The translations under genes were made by a program, and so were the position numbers. 48,641 nucleotides of DNA from an uncultured Desulfococcus sp. (GTDB lineage Bacteria; Desulfobacterota; Desulfobacteria; Desulfobacterales; Desulfococcaceae): NCBI GenBank assembly GCA_913060435.1, contig CAJXSB010000002.1:1-48641 (forward strand). The letters are read 5' to 3'. The notes under the pieces are model-generated. The model did no database searches. It worked only from the letters and a program-made list of their open reading frames with translations, and was not told where the DNA came from. Below are positions 1,689 through 21,625 of this stretch, piece after piece. Numbering within the stretch: position 1 is the stretch's first letter; each line of letters begins with the position of its first letter.

Positions 1689-4322
1689 TTATGTCTCAAT
1701 CTGCCCGGCGATTTGGCGGATCTTGATGATGACGAACTCGGCCGGCTTGAGCGGGGCGAAGCCCACCAGAATGTTGACGATGCCCCGGTTGATGTCGTCC
1801 TGTGTGGTGGTCTCTTTGTCGCATTTCACCAGATATGCATCCCTCGGCGTACTTCCCTGAAATGCACCTTGACGGAAGAGGCTGTGCATGAACGCACCGA
1901 TGTTGAGGCGGATCTGCGCCCAGAGCGGCTCATCGTTCGGTTCGAAGACCACCCACTGGGTCCCCCGGTAGAGGCTTTCCTCGAGGAAGAGGGTCAGCCG
2001 GCGTACCGGGATGTATTTCCACTCCGACGCCTGCTGGTCGCTTCCCACCAGGGTACGGCTTCCCCAGCTTACATTGCCGTAAATCGGAAAATTTCGGAGG
2101 CAGTTGATGCCCAGAGGGTTCAGGGTTCCGTTCTCCTGATCGGTCAATTTGTAGTCCAGGGACTGAACGCCCCTCAATACGGCCTCGGTCCCGGCGGGCG
2201 CCTTCCAGACGCCGCGTGCACTGTCTGTGCGGGCATAGAGTCCCGCGATGGTGCCGCAGGCCCCGATGGATCGGGGGCGAAATTTATGGAGCGGGTCGGC
2301 AATGCGAATACGGGGAAAGTATACGGCGGCGTTTGCGTGGCGCAGGCTATCGCTCTTTTTGAGCCAACTCTTGATCTCTTGAACATCGTCGACGTTGTTG
2401 GGGGTATCCAGGATGAAAAAGGCCCGCTTTTTCTCACAGTAATGATTGGCCACGGCAATCACCTGCTGGGCCTCGGATGCTGACAGCGGTTTGGGATCGT
2501 TTCCCGATACCATGGCCGTCCGGGGGATACAGAGGATGTTGAAGAGATCTACATCTTCCAGTGCATAGATGCCTGTCTTGCTGTTCAGGTCTCCGATCAG
2601 CGCCGTACCATCGGGCGGTAATCCGTCATATCCGGAAGCGCCCGACCCTTGGGCGGTATTCGGCATCGCCGCTCCGGCGCCGAGGCGGTATTCCTGTACA
2701 TTGGCAACAGCACCGCTTGCTGTATCCAGCTTGAGCGCTTTGACGGTCTTTGCGTCCTGGGGGGCTTCCGTGAACACAACGGTATTTCCCGTGTGCCCGG
2801 GTATCACAACAAGCCGATGTTCACCCGCCTGCGAGTATAGTGCCACGCGCGCTCCGGTAAAGGCCTGGTTTTTCTTTTTGTCGGCGCTGCGGATCGCCTC
2901 TTCCAGGCGGGTCCTGGCATCGTTTAGGGAAGTGGGCTTTGGGCTGAGCGTTGCCGTGTGAGGGCCTTCATTTCCGATGGTTACTTTCAGCGCTGGCACG
3001 ACCGCGCTCAGCGTTGGCGGTGATGGGATATCGCCTGAAACCAACCCCTCCGCCGACATAACCGATGCCGTGTTCAGCTTCAGCTGGGATACGGTGGTAT
3101 TGTCGGTCGGCGTGGCGGCAAATGACACCTTGACGCCGGAGATGCCGGGTATCACAATGAGCCGGTGATCACCCGGCTGGCTATAGACTGCCACACGTGC
3201 TGCTTTGAACGTCTGCCCCTTGCCAGCCCCGCGGATGGCGTTTTCCAGGCGGGACCGGACATCGGTCAGTGAAGTGGGCTTTGGCATCGCAAATTCCGCC
3301 AGGTGTGGGCCTTCATTTCCGATGGTTACGCTTACTGCAGGCTTCCCGGCACTCAACGCCAGAGACGATGAAAGGTTACCTGAAACAGCCCCGTCAAAGG
3401 AGAGGGCCGATGCCGTGTCCAACGCTAACTCCTCTGCCGTTGGATCGGACCCTGCGGAGCCGAAGGCGATGCGCGAAGATGCGGATGTGGGGCCGGCGAG
3501 AATCCGAAGCCGGTTTTGAAAGAGTGCCACCTCGGCAGAGGCGAACGCCGGGTTGTCGGGCTTGCTGGAACGGATGGCGGATTCAAGCGCGGACCGGGCT
3601 TTTTCCAGGGTAGCTGGTTTTTCCTTGAATTTCGCGGTATAGCTCCCCTCCGTCCCGATGGTGACATCGACAGCCGGGGAGCTCGCCGTCAGCGCGACCG
3701 CGGAAAAAGAGGATAGGTCGCCTGAAACCGTCCCGTTTTGCGCCGGGGCATTGGCATGGGTCTTTTCTATTTGAATCAGCTTTGAGCCAGAGTTTCTGTC
3801 ATTGACGACCGCTTTCGCCCACGATGCATCCTTGGGATCCATCGATAGATTTCGAAAAACCTCAGAGCGGACGGTTCTGGGATTTTCCCCGCTGCCGGCA
3901 TACTCCGAGACCGTCATGTTGAACAGGGACGGGGCGGATGGATTGTAATCGATGCTGACCCGCAGATGATTGCCCCAGACGCCTTCGTTTATCGCTTCAA
4001 TTTCGAGGGACGCTGCACCGCCGTTGTCCAAGATCTTCAACGTCGCCTTCTTGGCACCTGTCGCGGTGCGGACCACCCAGGCTTCAGCGCCACCGTTCAG
4101 GAAGAACTGCTGGAGGGCATAGCTTACCTCGCTTTCAGCGTCCAACCCTCCGAATTCCCGGTTAAAGTCTCCCATGTTGAAGATTTGGACAGCCTGATTC
4201 ATCGGGCCTCGCCTCAAAAACCCGAGAAATGCCGTGACCGATGTTGAAACCCCCGTGATCGTTCTGACCTCACTTGGAACTTCTTCGATGTACACGCCTG
4301 GATAAGTGGGTGTGACCGGCAT
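1689..4322 (-). CDS. Contractile tail sheath protein with tandem-repeat insertion
   Basis: This 877-residue protein has the N-terminal sheath start (MPVTPTYPGVYIEEVPSEVR, then GVSTSVTAFLGF). Its C-terminal domain ends in the family hallmark GFAPLKPAEFVIIKIRQ. Sheath subunits polymerise around the tube and contract to drive it into a target. At 877 residues it is far longer than the roughly 350-500 residues usual for such sheaths. The excess is three tandem copies of an about 115-residue unit at residues 197-550, between the N-terminal domain and the conserved core. A GGAGG lies 7 nt before the ATG. It is the first gene of the operon, with an intergenic region of about 380 nt upstream. The sheath call is firm; the role of the repeats is unknown. 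Confidence 0.93.
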   Translation of the reverse strand: MPVTPTYPGVYIEEVPSEVRTITGVSTSVTAFLGFLRRGPMNQAVQIFNMGDFNREFGGLDAESEVSYALQQFFLNGGAEAWVVRTATGAKKATLKILDNGGAASLEIEAINEGVWGNHLRVSIDYNPSAPSLFNMTVSEYAGSGENPRTVRSEVFRNLSMDPKDASWAKAVVNDRNSGSKLIQIEKTHANAPAQNGTVSGDLSSFSAVALTASSPAVDVTIGTEGSYTAKFKEKPATLEKARSALESAIRSSKPDNPAFASAEVALFQNRLRILAGPTSASSRIAFGSAGSDPTAEELALDTASALSFDGAVSGNLSSSLALSAGKPAVSVTIGNEGPHLAEFAMPKPTSLTDVRSRLENAIRGAGKGQTFKAARVAVYSQPGDHRLIVIPGISGVKVSFAATPTDNTTVSQLKLNTASVMSAEGLVSGDIPSPPTLSAVVPALKVTIGNEGPHTATLSPKPTSLNDARTRLEEAIRSADKKKNQAFTGARVALYSQAGEHRLVVIPGHTGNTVVFTEAPQDAKTVKALKLDTASGAVANVQEYRLGAGAAMPNTAQGSGASGYDGLPPDGTALIGDLNSKTGIYALEDVDLFNILCIPRTAMVSGNDPKPLSASEAQQVIAVANHYCEKKRAFFILDTPNNVDDVQEIKSWLKKSDSLRHANAAVYFPRIRIADPLHKFRPRSIGACGTIAGLYARTDSARGVWKAPAGTEAVLRGVQSLDYKLTDQENGTLNPLGINCLRNFPIYGNVSWGSRTLVGSDQQASEWKYIPVRRLTLFLEESLYRGTQWVVFEPNDEPLWAQIRLNIGAFMHSLFRQGAFQGSTPRDAYLVKCDKETTTQDDINRGIVNILVGFAPLKPAEFVIIKIRQIAGQIET
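2673..3734 (-). repeat. Three tandem ~115-residue repeats inside the sheath gene
   Basis: The encoded units span about residues 197-310, 311-427 and 428-550. Each holds the ordered motifs V-SG-(D/N)-(L/I), VTIG-EG, KP-(A/T)-(S/T)-L, R-LE-AIR, A-(R/E)-VA-(L/V)-(Y/F)-(S/Q), (H/N)RL-(I/V/R)-(V/I), and (A/K)L-(L/K)-(D/N)TAS. Copies two and three are more alike (IGNEGPH, QAGEHRLVVIPG or QPGDHRLIVIPG) than either is to copy one, which suggests stepwise duplication. In known sheaths, insertions at this place decorate the outer surface. Confidence 0.85.
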
Positions 4323-12939: not shown

Positions 12940-14064
12940 TTATCCATGCCAGGGTGTTTCCGGCTGGAATTGGCCGGAAGCGTCGACAAATGGCAGGTGC
13001 AGCTGCCGACAGGTGCCCGAAGGCGCCTGGGATGCGAAGTTCGAGATGCCCATGCCCAACAGCCGCACCCGGCGGCCCGCGGCGTCGGTGCTGTCCAGGA
13101 GCCTGCAGGCCTGGGCCGTCATGGTCGCTGCATCCCGGAAAGGCTGCTCCAGGGTCACGCTCCGGGTGATGCTGCGGAAATCCGAATACCGGATCTTGAT
13201 GGTCAAGGTCATCCCATAAACGTCATGCGCCCGGACGAGCGCCTCGATCTCGCCGGCCAGCCGTTCGAATACGGCGACCATCGGCGTCCTTCCTTCGATA
13301 TCCTCTGAAAAGGTGGTCTCCTTGCTGATGGACTTTCGCACCCGGTTGGCGTTGACCGGCCGGTGATCCCTTCCATGGGCGATGTCGTGAAAATAGATGC
13401 CGGCCTTGCCGAACCGGCGGACGAGATCCTCCTTCCGGAATCGTTTCAGATCCGCGCCGGTCCGGATTCCCATGGCCCGCATCTTTTCCTCGGTCGCCTT
13501 TCCCACGCCAAAGAATTTGCGGATCGCCAGCCGGTCGATGAACTGATCCGCGGCATGGGGGGGGACAACGGTAATCCCGTCGGGCTTGTTCTCGTCCGAG
13601 GCGACCTTGGCCAGAAATTTGTTGAACGAGATACCCGCAGAAGCGGTCAGGCCGGTTCGGGAGCGGATGTCCCGCCGGATGCATTCGGCCGTAATGGTGG
13701 CAGAGGGGATCTGCTTCTTATTGCGGGTGACATCCAGAAACGCCTCGTCGAGGGAGAGGGGTTCGACCAGGTCTGAATACTCGTGGAAGATATCCCGGAT
13801 CTCGGCCGACACCCGGCGGTAGACGTCAAAACGGGGCCTGAGAAAAATCCCGTGGGGGCACCGCCGCAGGGCGATCTTCCCCGGCAGAGCGGAATGGACC
13901 CCGAAACGCCGGGCTTCGTAAGAGCAGGCGGCGACAACCCCCCGCTTGCGGGGATCGCCGCCCACGATGACCGGTTTGCCACGGAGTTCGGGTCGGTCCC
14001 GCTGCTCCACGGCGGCATAAAAGGCGTCCATGTCGATGTGGATGATCTTGCGGTATCCATCCAT
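12940..14064 (-). CDS. dinB: DNA polymerase IV (Y-family)
   Basis: This 374-residue translesion polymerase has all the expected marks. The first catalytic aspartate is D11 in HIDMDAFYAAVEQ. YEARRFGVHSALP follows, and then the D106-E107 pair in PLSLDEAFLD. The helix-hairpin-helix thumb contains FFGVGKATEEKMRAMGI. A little-finger domain and a C-terminal beta-clamp motif QLHLPF at 354-359 complete it. It bypasses damaged bases with low fidelity. The damage-inducible character of the family fits the nearby S24-type repressor, but no copy of that repressor's palindrome lies directly upstream. A weak GAAGAGA ribosome site precedes the ATG. Confidence 0.96.
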   Translation of the reverse strand: MDGYRKIIHIDMDAFYAAVEQRDRPELRGKPVIVGGDPRKRGVVAACSYEARRFGVHSALPGKIALRRCPHGIFLRPRFDVYRRVSAEIRDIFHEYSDLVEPLSLDEAFLDVTRNKKQIPSATITAECIRRDIRSRTGLTASAGISFNKFLAKVASDENKPDGITVVPPHAADQFIDRLAIRKFFGVGKATEEKMRAMGIRTGADLKRFRKEDLVRRFGKAGIYFHDIAHGRDHRPVNANRVRKSISKETTFSEDIEGRTPMVAVFERLAGEIEALVRAHDVYGMTLTIKIRYSDFRSITRSVTLEQPFRDAATMTAQACRLLDSTDAAGRRVRLLGMGISNFASQAPSGTCRQLHLPFVDASGQFQPETPWHG

Positions 14065-14139
14065 GTCTCTTCACCGTCGGGGAAAACAGACCGCAGGCAG
14101 CGGCAGCCCGGTCAGTGCTGCGGGATTCCGGCGAAGGGG

Positions 14140-14346
14140 TCAGAAGGGCTTCACCGGCCGGACATTGACGGCCTGCTTTCCCTGGGGGGTGGTTTTCAGG
14201 TCAAAGCTGACAAGGTCGTCTTCCTGGAAGCCGAAATGACCGAATTCCTTTATGTTTTTGTAATAAAGAAATATATCCCCGTGTTCTTCGCTCGTGATGA
14301 ATCCGTATTTTTTCTTCTCGTTGTACCATTTGATGCGACCTTCCAT
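14140..14346 (-). CDS. Cold-shock-domain protein with altered RNP2
   Basis: This 68-residue protein is a single cold-shock domain, an OB-fold that binds single-stranded RNA or DNA. It begins MEGRIKWYNEKKKYGFI, with the RNP1-like KKYGFI. The chosen ATG at 14346 has GGAAGG 8 nt upstream; a GTG two codons earlier is too close to it. The second nucleic-acid motif reads DIFLYYKNI where CspA relatives usually have VFVHHS-I, so the paired histidine positions are replaced by tyrosine or leucine. The rest, including the QGKQAVNVRP end, is normal. It lies 75 nt upstream of dinB on the same strand and may be co-transcribed with it. Confidence 0.85.
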   Translation of the reverse strand: MEGRIKWYNEKKKYGFITSEEHGDIFLYYKNIKEFGHFGFQEDDLVSFDLKTTPQGKQAVNVRPVKPF

Positions 14347-14874
14347 GTACACGTCCTTCCGGGTTGGGGTGAGCGGTTTCGAATGGCATCCGGCGCTCCT
14401 GGGATTATTTCGAAAGAAGGTCTAAAATGGTGCTTTTAGACGGACTCCAAAACAATTTTCCGGGAGCGGTAGTATGTTCACGGCTCCCGTTCCGTCGCCT
14501 GATCTGACTTATTGTAGACTGCTCAACTTTCGAGCTTCGTTCACGCGATGGATCCGGAGACCACCGGCTCATGAAACGCGAAAGATAAATGATACACTAT
14601 CTATCGTCTTTTGGCAGAATGATCAAGGACGAAGGCGCCCGGAACCGCTGCCCCCGACGACCCGGATGGAAGTTATGCTTGCGTGCAGGGCCGCTGGGGG
14701 CTATAGACCTATCGGTCCCGATGCCGGCGTTCCCATGGATGGCCAACGCGCCCCCTGCCGGCGTCGTTGTATGGGCGCTGCCGCCGACAACGGCCGACGC
14801 TCCCATTTTCGCCCCATCATGGCGGCGGGGGGAATGCGCGGCCGGCAGCGGAAAGGATAAATGAGCTGAAAAAA
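14347..14874. other. Gene-poor stretch between csp-like and FAD oxidoreductase genes
   Basis: I find no gene with both a ribosome site and recognisable protein sequence in these 528 nt. Overlapping frames on both strands (for example plus 14589-14864) have no family resemblance. It holds a 7-bp hairpin at 14461-14489 without a T-tract and one copy of the dispersed repeat at 14511-14556. The promoters of the cold-shock gene (leftward) and the FAD oxidoreductase operon (rightward) should be here; I cannot pick clear ones. Confidence 0.55.
14511..14556 (-). repeat. Dispersed repeat, copy C (opposite orientation)
   Basis: The core TTCGTTCACGCGATGGAT (14536-14553) matches the reverse complement of 29571-29588 at 17 of 18 positions. 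The flanking TTGTAGACT and CAACTTTCGAG resemble the other two copies in order and spacing. The outer CCGGAGAAC-type end of copies A and B is shortened here to CCGGAGACC. Confidence 0.55.
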
Positions 14875-16194
14875 ATGACAAAGCGATATGATACGGATGT
14901 GGTGATCATCGGCGGCGGCGCCGTCGGCATCTGCTCGGCCTTTTACCTGAGGCAGCGTGGCTTCAAGGTGACGGTTGTCGATCGGGACCGCGTATGCGGG
15001 GCATGCTCCGCCGCTAATGGGGGCCTCATTGTGCCCAGCTACAGCATTCCCCTTTCGTCACCGGGGAAGATCGCCAAAGGGCTGAAGTGGATGCTCCACC
15101 CCGAAAGCCCGTTTTCCATCAAGCCCCGCCTCGATCCGGCGCTCCTCCGCTGGATGATGCTCTTCCAGCGCGCCTCCCGCCCGTACCGGTGCCGCGCCGG
15201 CATCCCCGTCCTCCGGGATCTCAATCTTGGCGGACTCCTTCAGTTCCAGGCGCTGCAGGCCGGACTGCCGCTGGACCTCGAACTTTCGCACCAGGGCTTC
15301 CTGGAGGTGTTCCGCACCCGCCATGGATATGAGGAAGGGGTCGAAGATGCCCGGCTCCTCGAGGGATTCGGCATCATCCCCGAGATCGTCGGGTCGGAAG
15401 CCGTCGCCGAGATGACCGGCGGCCGCCCTACCCGTGCCGTCGGCGGTATTTTCTACCCCCAGGACGCCCATATCGACCCCCGTCGATTCGTCGAACAGCT
15501 TGCGACGCACGTGCGCGGCATGGGGGTCGAGATCCGGGAGTCGACCATGGTGACGGGGTTTCGGATCTCCGGTTCACGGATCCGCGCCGTCGAAACGGAC
15601 CGGGGGGGGATCTCCGCACGCCATTTCGTTCTGGCCGGCGGGGCCTGGTCGCCCGGCATCGTGACGGGGCTGAAGATCGATCTGCCGATGCAGCCGGCCA
15701 AGGGCTACAGCGTCACCTTTGTCCGGACGGACGCCTGCCCCGTGATCCCCGTGGGGCTGTCGGAGGCCAAGACCGTCCTGACGCCGCTGGGAGAGCGCTT
15801 CCGGGTGGCGGGGACCCTCGAATTCGCCGGCTTCGACGAATCCTGGGGCCGTCGGCGCGTTCTGTCGGTGGTTCGCAGCATGTGCGACTATTTTCCCGAT
15901 ATCGACCCGTCCGCCATGGCGGTGGAGGAGATCTGGCAGGGGTTCCGTCCCTGCAGCCCGGACGGCCTTCCCTATCTCGGGCATACGGATGCATACGACA
16001 ACCTGATCGTGGCCGCGGGACACGGCATGCTCGGCGTCACCCAGGCGCCCATTTCAGGGTTGATGGCCGCCCAGCTGGCCGCCGGCGAGCGGCCGGAATT
16101 GAACCTCACGCCCCTGCACCCGGACCGGTTCCGGGGTCTGGGCCTTTTCTCAGGGGCGGCAGGCCGCCCTGGAACCAGGAGGATGGAATCATGA
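14875..16194 (+). CDS. FAD-dependent oxidoreductase, DadA/glycine-oxidase type
   Basis: The ATG at 14875 gives 439 residues starting with a beta strand and the dinucleotide-binding motif IIGGGAVGICSAFYL. The DAO-family features continue with NGGLIVPSYS near residue 50, HIDPRRFVEQLATH around 210, FVLAGGAWSPGI and a C-terminal AAGHGMLGVTQAP. Members oxidise the C-N bond of D-amino acids, glycine or sarcosine. Start choice is by homology; the ribosome site is weak (GAGCTG). The stop overlaps the start of the DsbA-like selenoprotein as ATGA, so the two are translationally coupled and probably work together. Substrate is unknown. It resembles the membrane-linked D-amino acid dehydrogenases most. 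Confidence 0.85.
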   Translation: MTKRYDTDVVIIGGGAVGICSAFYLRQRGFKVTVVDRDRVCGACSAANGGLIVPSYSIPLSSPGKIAKGLKWMLHPESPFSIKPRLDPALLRWMMLFQRASRPYRCRAGIPVLRDLNLGGLLQFQALQAGLPLDLELSHQGFLEVFRTRHGYEEGVEDARLLEGFGIIPEIVGSEAVAEMTGGRPTRAVGGIFYPQDAHIDPRRFVEQLATHVRGMGVEIRESTMVTGFRISGSRIRAVETDRGGISARHFVLAGGAWSPGIVTGLKIDLPMQPAKGYSVTFVRTDACPVIPVGLSEAKTVLTPLGERFRVAGTLEFAGFDESWGRRRVLSVVRSMCDYFPDIDPSAMAVEEIWQGFRPCSPDGLPYLGHTDAYDNLIVAAGHGMLGVTQAPISGLMAAQLAAGERPELNLTPLHPDRFRGLGLFSGAAGRPGTRRMES

Positions 16195-16820
16195 CGGATC
16201 CCGTACGATTGGAGATCTTTTCCGACTATGTCTGACCCTGGTGCTATTTCATTACCGGGCGTATTGAACGATTGGAAGAGACGTATGAGATGGATGTTCG
16301 ATGGGTGGCCTTTCCCCTCCACCCCGAAACCCCTGCAGAGGGGATGACCCTGGAGGCGCTGTTTGCAGGACAGCCCGTCGACATTCCCGGCATGATGGCG
16401 CGGCTCAAGGCCGAGGCGGACCGGGAGGGGCTCCCCTTCGGGGACCGCCGCCGAACCTACAACAGCCGTCTGGCCCAGGAGCTTGGGCACTGGGCGGCAT
16501 CCATGGGCCGGGGCCGGGCGTTTCACGATGCAGCGTTCCGGGCCTATTTTGCCGATGGCCGAAACCTCGCGGAGATCCCGGTCCTGACGGCCATCGCCGC
16601 AGATGCCGGCCTCGAGCCGGAAGCGGCCCGGGCCGTGCTGGAAGCGCGGACCTTCCGGTCCTCCGTGGATGCGGACTGGGCATATGCCCGGCGGATCGGC
16701 ATCCGGGCGGTGCCTTCGTTCAAGATCGGGGAGGCCTTGCTCGTGGGGGCCCGTCCGTATCCGGAACTCGAGGCCTTTCTGCTGAGAAGCCGCCCCGGAC
16801 CCGAGCTACATGGCGGTTGA
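16191..16820 (+). CDS. Probable selenoprotein: DsbA/FrnE-like with U-P-W-C active site
   Basis: The frame starts at ATG 16191, with AGGAGG 7 nt upstream and ATGA overlap to the FAD oxidoreductase gene. It reads MTDPVRLEIFSDYV, then TGA (16233-16235), then PWCYFITGRIERLEE and continues to 16820, 209 residues if the TGA is decoded. In DsbA-family FrnE-like proteins this exact place is the CPWC thioredoxin-fold active site after SDYV, so TGA replaces the first cysteine (U15, C18). The downstream part keeps the family helical insertion and the cis-Pro region (RAVPSFKIGEALLVGARPY). A hairpin follows the TGA. The likely role is thiol-disulfide oxidoreduction in the cytoplasm, since no signal peptide is seen. 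The alternative is a nonsense mutation, but the precise codon position argues against it. Confidence 0.85.
16233..16268 (+). promoter_or_regulatory. Candidate bacterial SECIS element
   Basis: The in-frame TGA is at 16233-16235. A hairpin begins 12 nt later: TTCATTAC (16248-16255), loop CGGGC (16256-16260), GTATTGAA (16261-16268), with seven pairs and one T-T mismatch. The loop starts 20 nt after the TGA and has G within its first two bases. Both fit the loose bacterial SECIS rules as I recall them (loop about 16-37 nt downstream, G at position one or two). It would recruit SelB with Sec-tRNA. Confidence 0.6.
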
Positions 16821-16942
16821 CCCGCGCCTTGCCTCCTGTTAAAATGGTTGGATCATTATACGTCGACACCATTTTTCGAATCGACATGGCATGACCGCCA
16901 TGGCCGGTGCGCGCGTGTCTTCATCGGGAAGGTTTTGCAGTC

Positions 16943-17704
16943 ATGCCGAAACATTCGGGTTTAACGTCCAAGGGCGCGCCATTCCGCGTCGCCAGGCAAA
17001 GCCGGATCTTCCAGGACGTGGTCGACCAGATTCAGGAAGCGATCCTGAGCGGGGAGTTCCAGCGGGGGGACATGCTGCCCTCGGAACGGGAGATGCGGGA
17101 AATTTTTCATGTCAGCCGGGGCACCCTCCGGGAGGCGCTTCGGGTGCTCGAACAGAAGGGGTTGATCGAGATCCGCCTCGGGGTCAACGGCGGCGCCATG
17201 GTCACGGCCGCCATCGCCGAGACCATGACCGAAAGCCTGGGGCTCATGCTCCGGTTCCGCAAGATCTCCCTCGACCACCTCCAGGAATTCCGGGAGGACA
17301 TCGAAGGCATCGTTACGGCCAAGGCAGCTGACAGGGCGGCCGAGGCCGATGTGGCGGTGCTGCGTTCGCTTCTGGCCGAGGCCGAAGCGCATGTGGCTGG
17401 GGGGATCTCGGAATGGCGCGCGTTTTTGAACGTCGACAAGAAATTCCACCAGGCCGTGGCCCGGATCACGGGAAACCCCATCTACATTTTCATCCACAAC
17501 ATGGTCCACGACAACATCCAGCCCTACTACGACACCTTCCTTCCCCCGGACCAGGAGCGGCTCCAGCAGAACTTCCGGGACCTGAAGGAGATCCTTGCGG
17601 CGGTGGAGTCCGGGGATGCGGACCAGGCTGGAGATCTTGCCAGAAAGCACATCTGGCGCTTCAACGAATACATGACGAAACGCCGGCAGGAGCCGCAGGG
17701 GTAG
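16943..17704 (+). CDS. GntR/FadR-family (FCD) transcriptional regulator
   Basis: The ATG at 16943 follows GGAAGG and gives 253 residues. A winged helix-turn-helix occupies about residues 20-85 (LPSEREMREIFHVSRGTLRE). The C-terminal all-helical FCD effector domain carries the metal/ligand histidine pattern D-KFH-AV at about 165 and LARKHIWRFNEYM at the end. Such regulators respond to carboxylic acids such as lactate, glycolate or gluconate. The gene sits between the FAD oxidoreductase/selenoprotein pair and the aromatic-pathway genes and GlcD/GlcF-type enzyme, all on one strand. It is therefore the likely local regulator, with the effector possibly a hydroxy acid, by analogy with LldR and GlcC. 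Confidence 0.9.
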   Translation: MPKHSGLTSKGAPFRVARQSRIFQDVVDQIQEAILSGEFQRGDMLPSEREMREIFHVSRGTLREALRVLEQKGLIEIRLGVNGGAMVTAAIAETMTESLGLMLRFRKISLDHLQEFREDIEGIVTAKAADRAAEADVAVLRSLLAEAEAHVAGGISEWRAFLNVDKKFHQAVARITGNPIYIFIHNMVHDNIQPYYDTFLPPDQERLQQNFRDLKEILAAVESGDADQAGDLARKHIWRFNEYMTKRRQEPQG

Positions 17705-17738
17705 CTGCGGCGTCAGCCAGCGGCGGGGCGGGAGAATC

Positions 17739-18263
17739 ATGCCAAGGCCCAACATCATCCTCACCGGATTCATGGGCACGGGGAAGACCACCGTGGGAAA
17801 AATCCTAGCGCGGCATCTGGGATACGGCTTCGTGGATACGGACGAACGGATCCAGGCGCGCTCCGGGAAAACCATTCCCGAGATTTTCCAGGAAGAGGGC
17901 GAAGCCGCCTTCCGCTGCCTGGAAGCGGCGGTGGCGCGGGAGCTCGCCGCCGGGGAGGGCATGGTGGTGGCGACGGGCGGCCGGATGATGCTCGACCCCG
18001 AAAACGCCGAAACCCTCGGCAGAAGCGGGCGCGTCTTCTGCCTGCAGGCGGCCCCGGAGGAGATTCTGGCCCGGGTGGCCGGGGATGCGGGGGCGGTGCG
18101 CCCTCTCCTGGAAGGCGGAGATCCCCTGGCGCGCATCCTGGCGCTCTTGAAGGAGCGGGCGGCGGGGTATGCCCGGTTCCCGCAGGTCCGGACCTCCGGC
18201 AGAACGCCGGAAGAGGTCGCGGGGCGCATCCTCGAGGCCTGCCAGGCGGATCCAGCATCCTGA
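17739..18263 (+). CDS. aroK: Shikimate kinase
   Basis: This 174-residue P-loop kinase phosphorylates shikimate in the chorismate pathway. It has the Walker A GFMGTGKTT at 10-18, the substrate-binding D33 and D35 in FVDTDERIQ, R59 in AAFRCLE, and the lid region AVRPLL near 119. The usual substrate-binding Gly-Gly-Gly reads ATGGRMM here, so the third glycine is Arg82; related deltaproteobacterial kinases may share this, which I recall but cannot verify. It is in an operon-like row 34 nt after the regulator and 58 nt before the type II dehydroquinase. Placement beside oxidoreductases rather than other aro genes is unusual. Confidence 0.88.
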   Translation: MPRPNIILTGFMGTGKTTVGKILARHLGYGFVDTDERIQARSGKTIPEIFQEEGEAAFRCLEAAVARELAAGEGMVVATGGRMMLDPENAETLGRSGRVFCLQAAPEEILARVAGDAGAVRPLLEGGDPLARILALLKERAAGYARFPQVRTSGRTPEEVAGRILEACQADPAS

Positions 18264-18321
18264 TGCCGCCACCCCTTTCCGGGCGCCGACGCCGGGGGCG
18301 GCCCCCAACGGAGGAGATCCC

Positions 18322-18780
18322 ATGAAAAAAGTGCTCGTGCTGCACGGCATCAATCTCAACATGTTCGGCAAGCGGGACCCCGGCCAATACGGCACCATCA
18401 CCCTGGACGAGATCGACCGGCGGCTGGCAAAGCTGGGGGACGAACTGAGGGCCGCGGTGGAATGCTTCCAGACCAACCATGAAGGGGAGATGGTGGAAAG
18501 GATCCACCAGGCCCATGGGGACGGGACGGATGCGGTCGTCATCAACGCCGGCGCCTGGACCCACTACAGCTACGGCATCATGGACGCCCTCGGCATCCTG
18601 ACCATCCCGGTCGTGGAGGTTCACATGTCCCATGTCCATGCCCGGGAGGCGTTCCGGCGGACGTCGGTGGTCGCGCCCGTGGCCCGGGGGCAGATCTCCG
18701 GCTTTGGGGTGCAGAGCTACCTCCTGGGGCTGCGGGCCGCTGTCGAACTGGTCCAAGGTCCGGAGTCCGCCGACGGATGA
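18322..18780 (+). CDS. aroQ: Type II 3-dehydroquinate dehydratase
   Basis: The ATG at 18322 follows GGAGGAG and gives 152 residues, the normal size. The enzyme interconverts 3-dehydroquinate and 3-dehydroshikimate. Family motifs are HGINLNMFGKRDPGQYG (Arg18 and Tyr23 in the catalytic loop), the NAGAWTHYS turn, and EVHMSHVHAREAFRRTS with the active-site histidine. Small departures exist: HGINLN where GPNLN is common, and MSH where LSN is common. Type II enzymes act in biosynthesis and in quinate catabolism. The neighbours (a hydroxyacid-type FAD/Fe-S enzyme and an FCD regulator) make the second possibility worth keeping. Confidence 0.9.
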   Translation: MKKVLVLHGINLNMFGKRDPGQYGTITLDEIDRRLAKLGDELRAAVECFQTNHEGEMVERIHQAHGDGTDAVVINAGAWTHYSYGIMDALGILTIPVVEVHMSHVHAREAFRRTSVVAPVARGQISGFGVQSYLLGLRAAVELVQGPESADG

Positions 18781-18802
18781 GCCGGCCGGAGAAGGAGCGG
18801 CG

Positions 18803-21625
18803 ATGAGCACGCACGGTTTGGATTCCCTGGCACGGCGCATCGACGGCGAGGTCCGCACCGATGCCCTGCGCAGGCAGCTCCTGTCGACGGACGGCAGCAT
18901 CTTCCAGAAGGTGCCTGCCGCCGTGGTCTACCCCCGCCATGCCGGAGATGTCGAGGCGACGGCGGCGTTCGCCCGGGAGAAAGGGGTTTCGGTCCATCCC
19001 CGCGGGGCCGGGAGCGGGCTCTGCGGCGGGGCCCTGGGCGGTGGCATCGTGGTCGATTTCACCCGCCACATGAACCGGCTGATCCGGATCGACCTCGAAC
19101 GGGGCATCTTCGAATGCGAGCCCGGATATCGCCTGGGCCAGCTGGAGGCGGCCCTCGCCGGGACGGGGCGCTTCTTTCCGCCGGACCCTTCGAGCGGGGA
19201 GTACGCGACCTTCGGAGGCATGGTCGCCACCAACGCCAGCGGTGCCCACAGCGTCAAGTACGGCAATGTGGCCGACTACCTCCTGGACGCCGAGGTGGTG
19301 ACGGGCGACGCCCGCCGGATCGTCCTCTCGGAGATTGAAGGCCGGGATATCGGCGCCCTTCCGGCGCATCTCCGGGAACTGGCCCGATTGTACACCGAAA
19401 ACGCGGATGCCATCGAGCGGGCCTATCCCCCGATCCGGTGCAACGTGGCCGGATACAACCTCCGGGGGCTGGTCGACGGCGGGCGCCTCCGCCTGGCGCG
19501 GCTCTTTGCCGGGGCCGAGGGCACCCTGGGCATCGCCGTCCGCCTCACCTTCCGGCTCCGGGAAAAGCCGCCCTTCGACAGCCTGGTGGTGGCCGCCTTC
19601 GACGACATCGTCCGCTCGGCTGCGGCGGTGCAGCAGCTCCTGCCCATGGGCCCTTCGGGCATCGAGGTCATGGACAAATCCCTCCTGGGGCTTGCCCGCG
19701 AGAACGACCCCGCCCTCCGGGAGCAGATTCCCGAGGGGGTCGACAACCTCCTCCTCATCGAGTTTGACGGCGACACGGCTGCGGCATGTGCCCGTGCGGC
19801 AGCAGCGGCCAGGGAACTCCTGGCGGGCGCGGGGCTGAGCCGGGAGATCCACATCGCCGTATCCGGCGGGGAGAAGGAACGGTTCTGGGCCGTTCGCAAG
19901 GCTGCGGTGCCGATCCTCTACCGGCTTAAGGGGGAGAAGAAGATTTTGGCCCTCATCGAGGACGCGGCCGTGCCCACGGACCATCTGGCGGCGTATTTCA
20001 AGGGAATTTACGAGATCCTGGAAAGGCGGGGCGTGCGCTTCGTCACCTCCGGCCACATCGCCAAGGGTCTCCTCCACACCCGGCCGCTCCTCGACCTCCG
20101 GGATGCCGGGGATGTGGCCCTACTCAAACCCATTGCAGACGACGTCTACGCACTGGTCGAGGGCCTGGGGGGAACGGTCTCGGGCGAGCACGGCGACGGT
20201 CGCCTCCGGAGCGCCTACATCCGGCGGCGCTACCCGGAGATCTACGATCTTTTTGCCGCGGTCAAGCGTTGCCTGGACCCGTCGGGGATCTTCAACCCCG
20301 AGATCAAGACCCGCCACGAGCCGGACCAGATGGCCCGCGCCCTCCGGTTCGGGGCGGAATACGCCGCCGCCGACATGCCGGGCAAGGCCCTGGCCTGGCC
20401 CGAGGGATTTGTCCGGGAGGCCGAGAAATGCCATGGCTGCAGCAAATGCACCACCGTGACGACGGCCACCCGCATGTGCCCCGTCTACAAATTCACCCGC
20501 GACGAAGACGCCGCGCCCAAGGCCAAGGCCAACCTCCTGCGGGCGCTCATCAGCGGCGCGCTGCCCGAAAAGGCACTCTACCGCCGGGCGTTCCAGCAGG
20601 TGATGGCGCAGTGCGTCCACTGCGGGAGCTGCGTTCACGAGTGCCCGTCGGGGGTCAACATCCCCAAGCTGGCGGTGGAGGCCCGGGCCCAGTATGTCCA
20701 GCGGTTCGGGATCTCCCTGGACCATCGGCTGCTCACGGCTGTCGAGCTGGCCGGGCGGACCACCCGAAAGCTTCCGGAATCGTTGAAGCGCCTGGCGGAG
20801 ACCCGGCCCGCCAGGCGGGCGGCCGAGCGGTTCGCCAACGTATCCGCTCGACGGCGCCGCCCCTGTTTCCCCGCCCGTTCCCTCTTCGAGCGGGTCCCGG
20901 CCGCATCCAGCGGGGGCCGCCCCCGGGTGCTTTATTTTGCGGGGTGCTACGCCTCCTACATCCGGCCCGAGATCGGCGAGGCCGCCGTCCGGGTGCTGAC
21001 GGCCATGGGCATGACGGTCTTCGTGCCCCATCAGCACTGCTGCGGCCTGCCCATGCTGGCCAAGGGCATGACCCGCCAGGCGGCGGCAAAGATTCGGAAA
21101 AATCTCGCCCGGTGGGGGCGCCTGGCCAGTGAGGTGGATGCCGTGGTGGTCACGTGCTCCTCCTGCGGCCTCTCCCTGATGCGGGAGTGGGGGGATCTTG
21201 CGGGTGCCGCCGGCGTGGGAGCCATCCAGGCAAAAACGATGCACATCAGCCGCCTGATCGGGGATTTTCGCGAGCGGCTGCCCCTCGGGCCGATGCCTCT
21301 CCGCGCCGCCTACCACATGCCGTGCCACCTGAAGGTCCAGCCGTCGCCGGAAAGCTCCCTCTCCCTCCTGGCGCGGATCCCGGACCTGGCGGCTGTCGAC
21401 CTGAAAGGCCACTGCTGCGGCATGGCCGGAACCTGGGGCATGTGCGTCGCCAACGACGACCTGAGCCGGAAAATCGGCGCGGAGATGATCGCCCGGCTCG
21501 ACCGCTCGGGTGCGGCCGTCGGCGTGACCGACTGCCCCACCTGCCGGATGCAGATGGAGGAGATGGGAGATCTGCCCGTCCGGCATCCGATTGAACTCGC
21601 GGCCGCCGCCATCGCCGATGGATAA
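18803..21625 (+). CDS. Fused FAD/Fe-S oxidoreductase (GlcD-GlcF, D-lactate dehydrogenase type)
   Basis: The ATG at 18803 follows GAAGGAG and gives 940 residues. The N-terminal half is a PCMH-type FAD domain (HPRGAGSGLCGGALGG near 65-80) with a GlcD C-terminal domain ending in SGEHGDGRLR and LDPSGIFNPEIK. Two 4Fe-4S clusters follow: CHGCSKC near 542 and CVHCGSCVHECP near 603. Two CCG-type domains complete it (FAGC near 712, HQHCCGLP near 743, CHLK near 841, HCCGMAG near 870, DCPTC). Enzymes of this fused kind oxidise D-lactate, glycolate or D-2-hydroxyglutarate and pass electrons to quinone or cytochromes. The aroQ gene ends 22 nt upstream. Which hydroxy acid is used cannot be told. Confidence 0.9.
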   Translation: MSTHGLDSLARRIDGEVRTDALRRQLLSTDGSIFQKVPAAVVYPRHAGDVEATAAFAREKGVSVHPRGAGSGLCGGALGGGIVVDFTRHMNRLIRIDLERGIFECEPGYRLGQLEAALAGTGRFFPPDPSSGEYATFGGMVATNASGAHSVKYGNVADYLLDAEVVTGDARRIVLSEIEGRDIGALPAHLRELARLYTENADAIERAYPPIRCNVAGYNLRGLVDGGRLRLARLFAGAEGTLGIAVRLTFRLREKPPFDSLVVAAFDDIVRSAAAVQQLLPMGPSGIEVMDKSLLGLARENDPALREQIPEGVDNLLLIEFDGDTAAACARAAAAARELLAGAGLSREIHIAVSGGEKERFWAVRKAAVPILYRLKGEKKILALIEDAAVPTDHLAAYFKGIYEILERRGVRFVTSGHIAKGLLHTRPLLDLRDAGDVALLKPIADDVYALVEGLGGTVSGEHGDGRLRSAYIRRRYPEIYDLFAAVKRCLDPSGIFNPEIKTRHEPDQMARALRFGAEYAAADMPGKALAWPEGFVREAEKCHGCSKCTTVTTATRMCPVYKFTRDEDAAPKAKANLLRALISGALPEKALYRRAFQQVMAQCVHCGSCVHECPSGVNIPKLAVEARAQYVQRFGISLDHRLLTAVELAGRTTRKLPESLKRLAETRPARRAAERFANVSARRRRPCFPARSLFERVPAASSGGRPRVLYFAGCYASYIRPEIGEAAVRVLTAMGMTVFVPHQHCCGLPMLAKGMTRQAAAKIRKNLARWGRLASEVDAVVVTCSSCGLSLMREWGDLAGAAGVGAIQAKTMHISRLIGDFRERLPLGPMPLRAAYHMPCHLKVQPSPESSLSLLARIPDLAAVDLKGHCCGMAGTWGMCVANDDLSRKIGAEMIARLDRSGAAVGVTDCPTCRMQMEEMGDLPVRHPIELAAAAIADG

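Follow-up and report, generated by a model that had tools for sequence, protein, structure and literature searches.

The window analysed here is a stretch of 48,641 nucleotides of contig CAJXSB010000002.1 from an uncultured Desulfococcus sp. (GenBank assembly GCA_913060435.1). Within it, a gene for a DAO-type FAD-dependent oxidoreductase is followed directly by a FrnE/DsbA-like frame with TGA at codon 15 and then by a gene for a GntR/FCD regulator (Table 1). The ATG at 16191 overlaps the oxidoreductase stop (TGA, 16192-16194) in the sequence ATGA and has a strong AGGAGG site in front of it, both as described in the original prediction. The in-frame TGA is part of the motif SDYV-TGA-PWC and is followed by 194 sense codons. 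The oxidoreductase is closest to the D-amino-acid dehydrogenase model PRK00711, with a score of 270.6 bits that lies below the cut-off of 383. The element AATGGTTGGATCATTATA, which is conserved upstream of the regulator gene both here and in a complete genome of the same genus (G001), could be the operator of the GntR regulator.

Table 1. Coordinates of the genes and sequence elements at the locus, in window numbering
Feature	Position	Strand	Basis or remark
DAO-type FAD-dependent oxidoreductase, D-amino-acid-dehydrogenase-like	14875..16194	+	PF01266, 221.8 bits
Shine-Dalgarno AGGAGG	16177..16182	+	sequence; spacer to ATG 8 nt
Predicted FrnE/DsbA-like selenoprotein gene	16191..16820	+	209 residues including Sec15; TGA stop 16818-16820
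Predicted Sec codon UGA (codon 15), first position of UPWC	16233..16235	+	TGA in 45, TGC or TGT in 76 relatives
Cys18, partner of Sec15, sole Cys codon in frame	16242..16244	+	invariant in protein alignment A2
Putative SECIS, upper stem-loop UUUCAUUAC-CGGGC-GUAUUGAA	16248..16268	+	covariation; TGA-only synonymous constraint; 10 further loci, not all independent
Putative SECIS, apical loop	16256-16260	+	5 nt; invariant G at 16257, loop position 2
Pro175 within V-P	16713..16715	+	V174 and P175 invariant in alignment A2
AATGGTTGGATCATTATA, conserved upstream of GntR gene in window and G001	16843-16860		sequence comparison
GntR/FCD regulator downstream of selenoprotein gene	16943..17704	+	syntenic in same-genus genome G001

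The interrupted frame, its homologues and the decoding machinery

The read-through product matches the Pfam DSBA family (PF01323) over residues 7-196 with 108.5 bits, the cut-off being 25.6 bits, and the protein alignment shows that the invariant residues of the family are kept across all 194 codons downstream of the TGA, confirming the open frame with family motifs that had been noted originally. Its best sequence match in the PDB is Deinococcus radiodurans FrnE (2e-28). This alignment passes straight through the active site, CPWCY against CPWCY, with the FrnE cysteine opposite the window's TGA.

The TGA had been placed at the first Cys position of the CPWC motif of FrnE/DsbA proteins, and the codon alignment of 121 family members agrees with this: codon 15 is TGA in 45 of them and a Cys codon (TGC or TGT) in the other 76, which supply the Cys homologues that the original prediction proposed to look for. 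The recurrence of TGA at this one codon is far beyond chance. Scanning GTDB genomes, we obtained 80 loci, 75 with TGC or TGT at codon 15 and five with TGA (L020, L021, L024, L073 and L094), and the closest named loci belong to one Syntrophales MAG and one Desulfarculaceae MAG. Among 96 relatives the gene is present in 43, nearly all with a single TGA; 61 of 297 genomes drawn from the phylum also have it, with one TGA in most full-length matches. We inspected 30 of the relative loci: those read in the forward-strand alignment have the TGA at codon 15, and the others have the same aligned stop. On a protein tree calculated with codon 15 left out (a quick tree, with several long branches) the Sec/Cys label changes at least seven times, so the family interconverts Sec and Cys, with one large group made up mainly of Sec members. 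With such repeated switching, the family would lend itself to asking why some lineages retain Sec and others give it up.

Several further copies were seen during these comparisons. On an Anaerolineaceae contig, a distant paralogue (L098:6676-7308, 25% identity) has TGA at the equivalent position (U-VWC) and sits 1.7 kb downstream of a Cys-type FrnE homologue. At about position 3647 of locus L153 (G073:C3:204147) there is a truncated copy which keeps the start, the TGA and a SECIS-like segment, while Ser replaces Cys18 and the frame is lost soon after; it is a duplicate in decay, lying some 4.6 kb away from the intact copy. Short matches similar to this fragment are also found in G070 (L189) and G017 (L190).

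The source genome assembly (4.58 Mb in 553 contigs, 98.8% complete) contains tRNA-Sec (76.1 bits, Rfam gathering threshold 47), selA (610 bits, on contig C84) and selD (376 bits; L017, G000 contig C1, 115-1035). The selD gene itself has one in-frame TGA and is predicted to encode a second selenoprotein. For selB, a 377-aa frame corresponding to the C-terminal part runs off the end of contig C84; the draft assembly of the source genome yielded no full-length gene and no N-terminal half of SelB, while the complete genome G001 has a full-length selB (361 bits). A TIGR00475 match on contig C56 (194.6 bits) was rejected as selB, being EF-Tu in a 404-aa frame within a ribosomal-protein region. Besides full selB, two relatives have a second SelB-family match (G001:C1:1715285-1716385 and G002:C1:3116580-3118355). 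Hence, of the selA, selB, selC and selD set that the original prediction wanted to see, tRNA-Sec, selA and selD are in place and selB is represented by a C-terminal fragment at a contig end. Since selA is nearly universal among the 96 relatives (93 of 96, including all 43 that carry the selenoprotein gene), its co-occurrence with the gene is a consistency check only. Of 20 window genes whose stops were checked, 13 end in an ordinary UGA, and we therefore rejected a genome-wide reassignment of this codon as an explanation of the in-frame TGA.

The original prediction was exposed on two sides, to a genome lacking machinery and to homologues lacking Cys at this codon; the machinery is present (selB as a fragment only), Cys homologues exist, and the selenocysteine reading is strongly supported. 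A standard annotation would stop after codon 14 or choose a later start, and the gene therefore adds a well-supported entry to the selenoproteome.

A conserved hairpin downstream of the UGA

In TGA members of the family, synonymous codons at codons 16-26 are shared far above the expectation from codon usage. Over codons 16-32 the excess of synonymous identity is 0.21 in these members versus 0.04 elsewhere in the gene, and the Cys members have 0.04 over the same codons; Phe20 is TTC in essentially every compared pair of TGA members. Since the constraint at codons 16-26 is limited to TGA members, it acts on the RNA and is tied to the TGA. It is accounted for by the hairpin at 16248-16268, in which 96.2% of cells are paired across the TGA members and changes on both sides are found in five of the seven pairs. 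There are 26 double-changed cells, against 3.9 +/- 1.6 in shuffles (0/500), and sliding of the partner strand abolishes the pairing signal. RNAalifold arrived unprompted at the same helix. The hairpin is reproduced in 10 further loci outside the defining set, from other families of the phylum and not all independent (L194 is nearly identical to L021 in the hairpin region), and three of the 10 have U-A instead of A-U at one pair.

The published bSECIS model demands an apical loop of 3-9 nt with G in one of the first two loop positions, a distance of 16-37 nt between the loop and UGA and an energy of -7.5 kcal/mol or lower (quoted in PMC13188914). The window hairpin has this geometry, with its loop 20 nt after UGA. 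When enforced in the window RNA its energy is -5.5 kcal/mol, weaker than the model value, which 28 of the 45 TGA members reach; the free optimum of the window RNA (-11.4 kcal/mol) pairs differently from the conserved hairpin. The minimum-energy hairpin formed by many members was set aside, since the covarying one has far better support. Taken across the alignment, the comparisons strongly support the hairpin at 16248-16268 as a putative bacterial SECIS, and the set of 45 TGA and 76 Cys sequences offers clean evidence for such an element in the form of TGA-specific synonymous constraint together with covariation. SelB carrying Sec-tRNA-Sec would bind this stem-loop, within codons 20-26, and insert Sec at UGA, giving a product with a Sec-Pro-Trp-Cys site that would open the first helix of the thioredoxin fold.

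Could the TGA be an ordinary stop instead, either in a pseudogene or through a sequencing or assembly error for TGC or TGT? It is one base away from the Cys codons, and decayed remnants of the gene do exist elsewhere, as in the L153 fragment of G073. However, the identical TGA in dozens of independent genomes, the synonymous constraint specific to it, the covarying hairpin, the open codons with invariant residues after the TGA and the Sec machinery in the genome all argue against this explanation, and we consider it extremely improbable. We give hardly any credence either to termination at UGA combined with an internal start of the downstream frame, for example at TTG 16272, which would yield a truncated protein without the active site. 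Possible start codons are indeed available downstream of the TGA, but the first strand and the active-site motif around it are as conserved as the rest of the protein, and a product without beta1 and UxxC would be without the core of the fold. As for the RNA, the conserved signal might be another hairpin, CCUGGUG with UACCGGG (16237-16259), which forms in many members with 90.2% of cells paired. This is very unlikely, as it overlaps the invariant Pro-Trp-Cys codons, has six double-changed cells compared to 26 in the covarying hairpin, is unpaired at one pair in 15 of the 45 sequences and places its loop 8 nt from UGA, too close for the published spacing of 16-37 nt. For codon 15 itself, the machinery, the Cys and TGA homologues and the TGA-specific covarying hairpin agree with the selenocysteine that had been predicted in the UxxC active site: the in-frame UGA is almost certainly read as selenocysteine, and we infer that Sec is actually inserted there.

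Fold, probable function and known relatives

The AlphaFold2 model, built from a 32-sequence alignment, has a pLDDT of 94.1 and a pTM of 0.90. In it, Sec15 and Cys18 lie where the first long helix starts, and beta1 already begins at residue 5, with no hydrophobic leader. Pro175 is presumably the cis-proline of the thioredoxin fold and would face the active site, as we expect from DsbA folds in general. The top Foldseek matches in the PDB are the D. radiodurans FrnE (DrFrnE) entries, with TM scores of 0.85-0.89, and next Streptomyces coelicolor SCO1869 with 0.87. The model thus has a predicted FrnE-like fold, a motif of the CP(W/F)C type (as UPWC) and no signal peptide.

DrFrnE is reported to be a cytoplasmic disulfide reductase that is important under diamide and cadmium stress; FrnE proteins have the CP(W/F)C motif and in many members also a C-terminal CXXXXC, which some lack (PMC8945050). 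In Pseudomonas, a FrnE/DsbA-like gene contributes to resistance against allicin, that is, to disulfide stress (PMC7119367). By analogy with these two cases, the product in the window is likely to act in the cytoplasm as a selenol/thiol-disulfide reductase. Its selenolate would attack a substrate disulfide, a mixed disulfide or another oxidised thiol, Cys18 would resolve the selenosulfide, and the electrons would be supplied by thioredoxin reductase or by low-molecular-weight thiols; the reductase rather than oxidase direction, the electron donor and the substrate are all what we infer from the family. Overall, we consider it highly probable that the gene encodes a cytoplasmic FrnE/DsbA-family oxidoreductase with UGA codon 15 decoded as selenocysteine.

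Compared to DrFrnE (DR_0659; PDB 5cnw, 5coh and others), the window protein shares the CP(W/F)C-type motif and the predicted cytoplasmic location, but it has Sec in place of the first Cys and lacks the C-terminal CXXXXC. SCO1869 (PDB 3gl5) has a DsbA/FrnE-type fold as well, although it is more distant in sequence (5e-14) than DrFrnE and gives no evidence of Sec. The HCCA isomerases and kappa-class GSTs have a related DsbA-like fold (TM 0.68-0.76) at 13-22% identity and are not known to have a CxxC dithiol site.

A report of 2005 assigned DsbA-like UxxC selenoproteins from the Sargasso Sea to COG2761 (PMC1088965), in line with the statement in the original prediction that such redox selenoproteins have been reported in metagenomic surveys. 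Sequenced bacteria, deltaproteobacteria among them, were added in 2006 (PMC1794560), and a 2026 review lists a 'DsbA-like protein form 1' (PMC13188914). The FrnE match would place the window protein in COG2761 too. Compared by description only, the window gene and this family share PF01323, Sec as the first residue of UxxC, Cys homologues and a SECIS after UGA (PMC1088965, PMC13188914), and no difference in kind was found, except that the FAD oxidoreductase neighbour here is lineage-specific. The gene is therefore a well-supported addition to a selenoprotein family known since 2005 and not a new kind of system.

The flavin oxidase neighbour and the surrounding locus

The original prediction coupled the selenoprotein to the FAD oxidase, and the operon-like overlap on which this was based is real; the two genes are probably co-transcribed in the source genome. 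Are they then a dedicated pair, the selenoprotein acting on disulfides or thiols that an amino-acid oxidase produces? The ATGA overlap and the strong internal ribosome-binding site do suggest co-transcription and translational coupling. However, the oxidase was found beside the gene in none of 40 relative loci (L107, L130-L168), on contigs some of which end close to the gene, nor in the screened named loci, and the 19 best oxidase homologues have no FrnE-like gene within a flank of ~1.5 kb. Window positions 12940-18263 are syntenic with G001 (L170) in the order DinB, oxidase (64% identical), GntR (79%) and shikimate kinase (67%), but in G001 the selenoprotein gene is absent between oxidase and GntR, and from this complete genome altogether. 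We therefore regard a dedicated pair as very unlikely, and the functional part of the proposed coupling is unsupported. The idea that the enzyme handles disulfide adducts of the oxidase product loses its comparative footing too, the pairing not being conserved. As far as these loci tell, the oxidoreductase is not a partner conserved with the selenoprotein gene, and the position beside a flavin amino-acid oxidase gene is peculiar to the source lineage, leaving no basis for functional coupling. We likewise see very little chance of a lineage-specific recruitment into an amino-acid-oxidase operon, in which the protein would work with the oxidase, for example by reducing a disulfide or a peroxide-derived compound that this enzyme forms.

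Homology of the window to G001 ends near 16144 within the oxidase. It starts again at 16808, where only the final codons of the selenoprotein gene are left, and extends through AATGGTTGGATCATTATA. Since the syntenic G001 locus is without the gene, it was either gained here or lost there. The neighbourhoods of the relative loci have almost nothing in common, and clustering of the neighbours of 53 loci, in a search for a redox partner, brought none to light. The only recurrent neighbours, with family names taken from reading the sequences, are an M48-type protease-like gene directly downstream in six of the 53 loci and a few families in three to five. A Sec-containing oxidase, considered since some oxidase homologues have apparent internal stops, was rejected, as these stops are terminal or lie outside the alignments. 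Further downstream in the window, at 17739-21625, GntR is followed on its own strand by genes for shikimate kinase, for type II dehydroquinase and for a GlcD-GlpC-like fusion of FAD-oxidase and Fe-S parts; shikimate genes are thus grouped, unusually, with genes of the 2-hydroxyacid-dehydrogenase-like kind.
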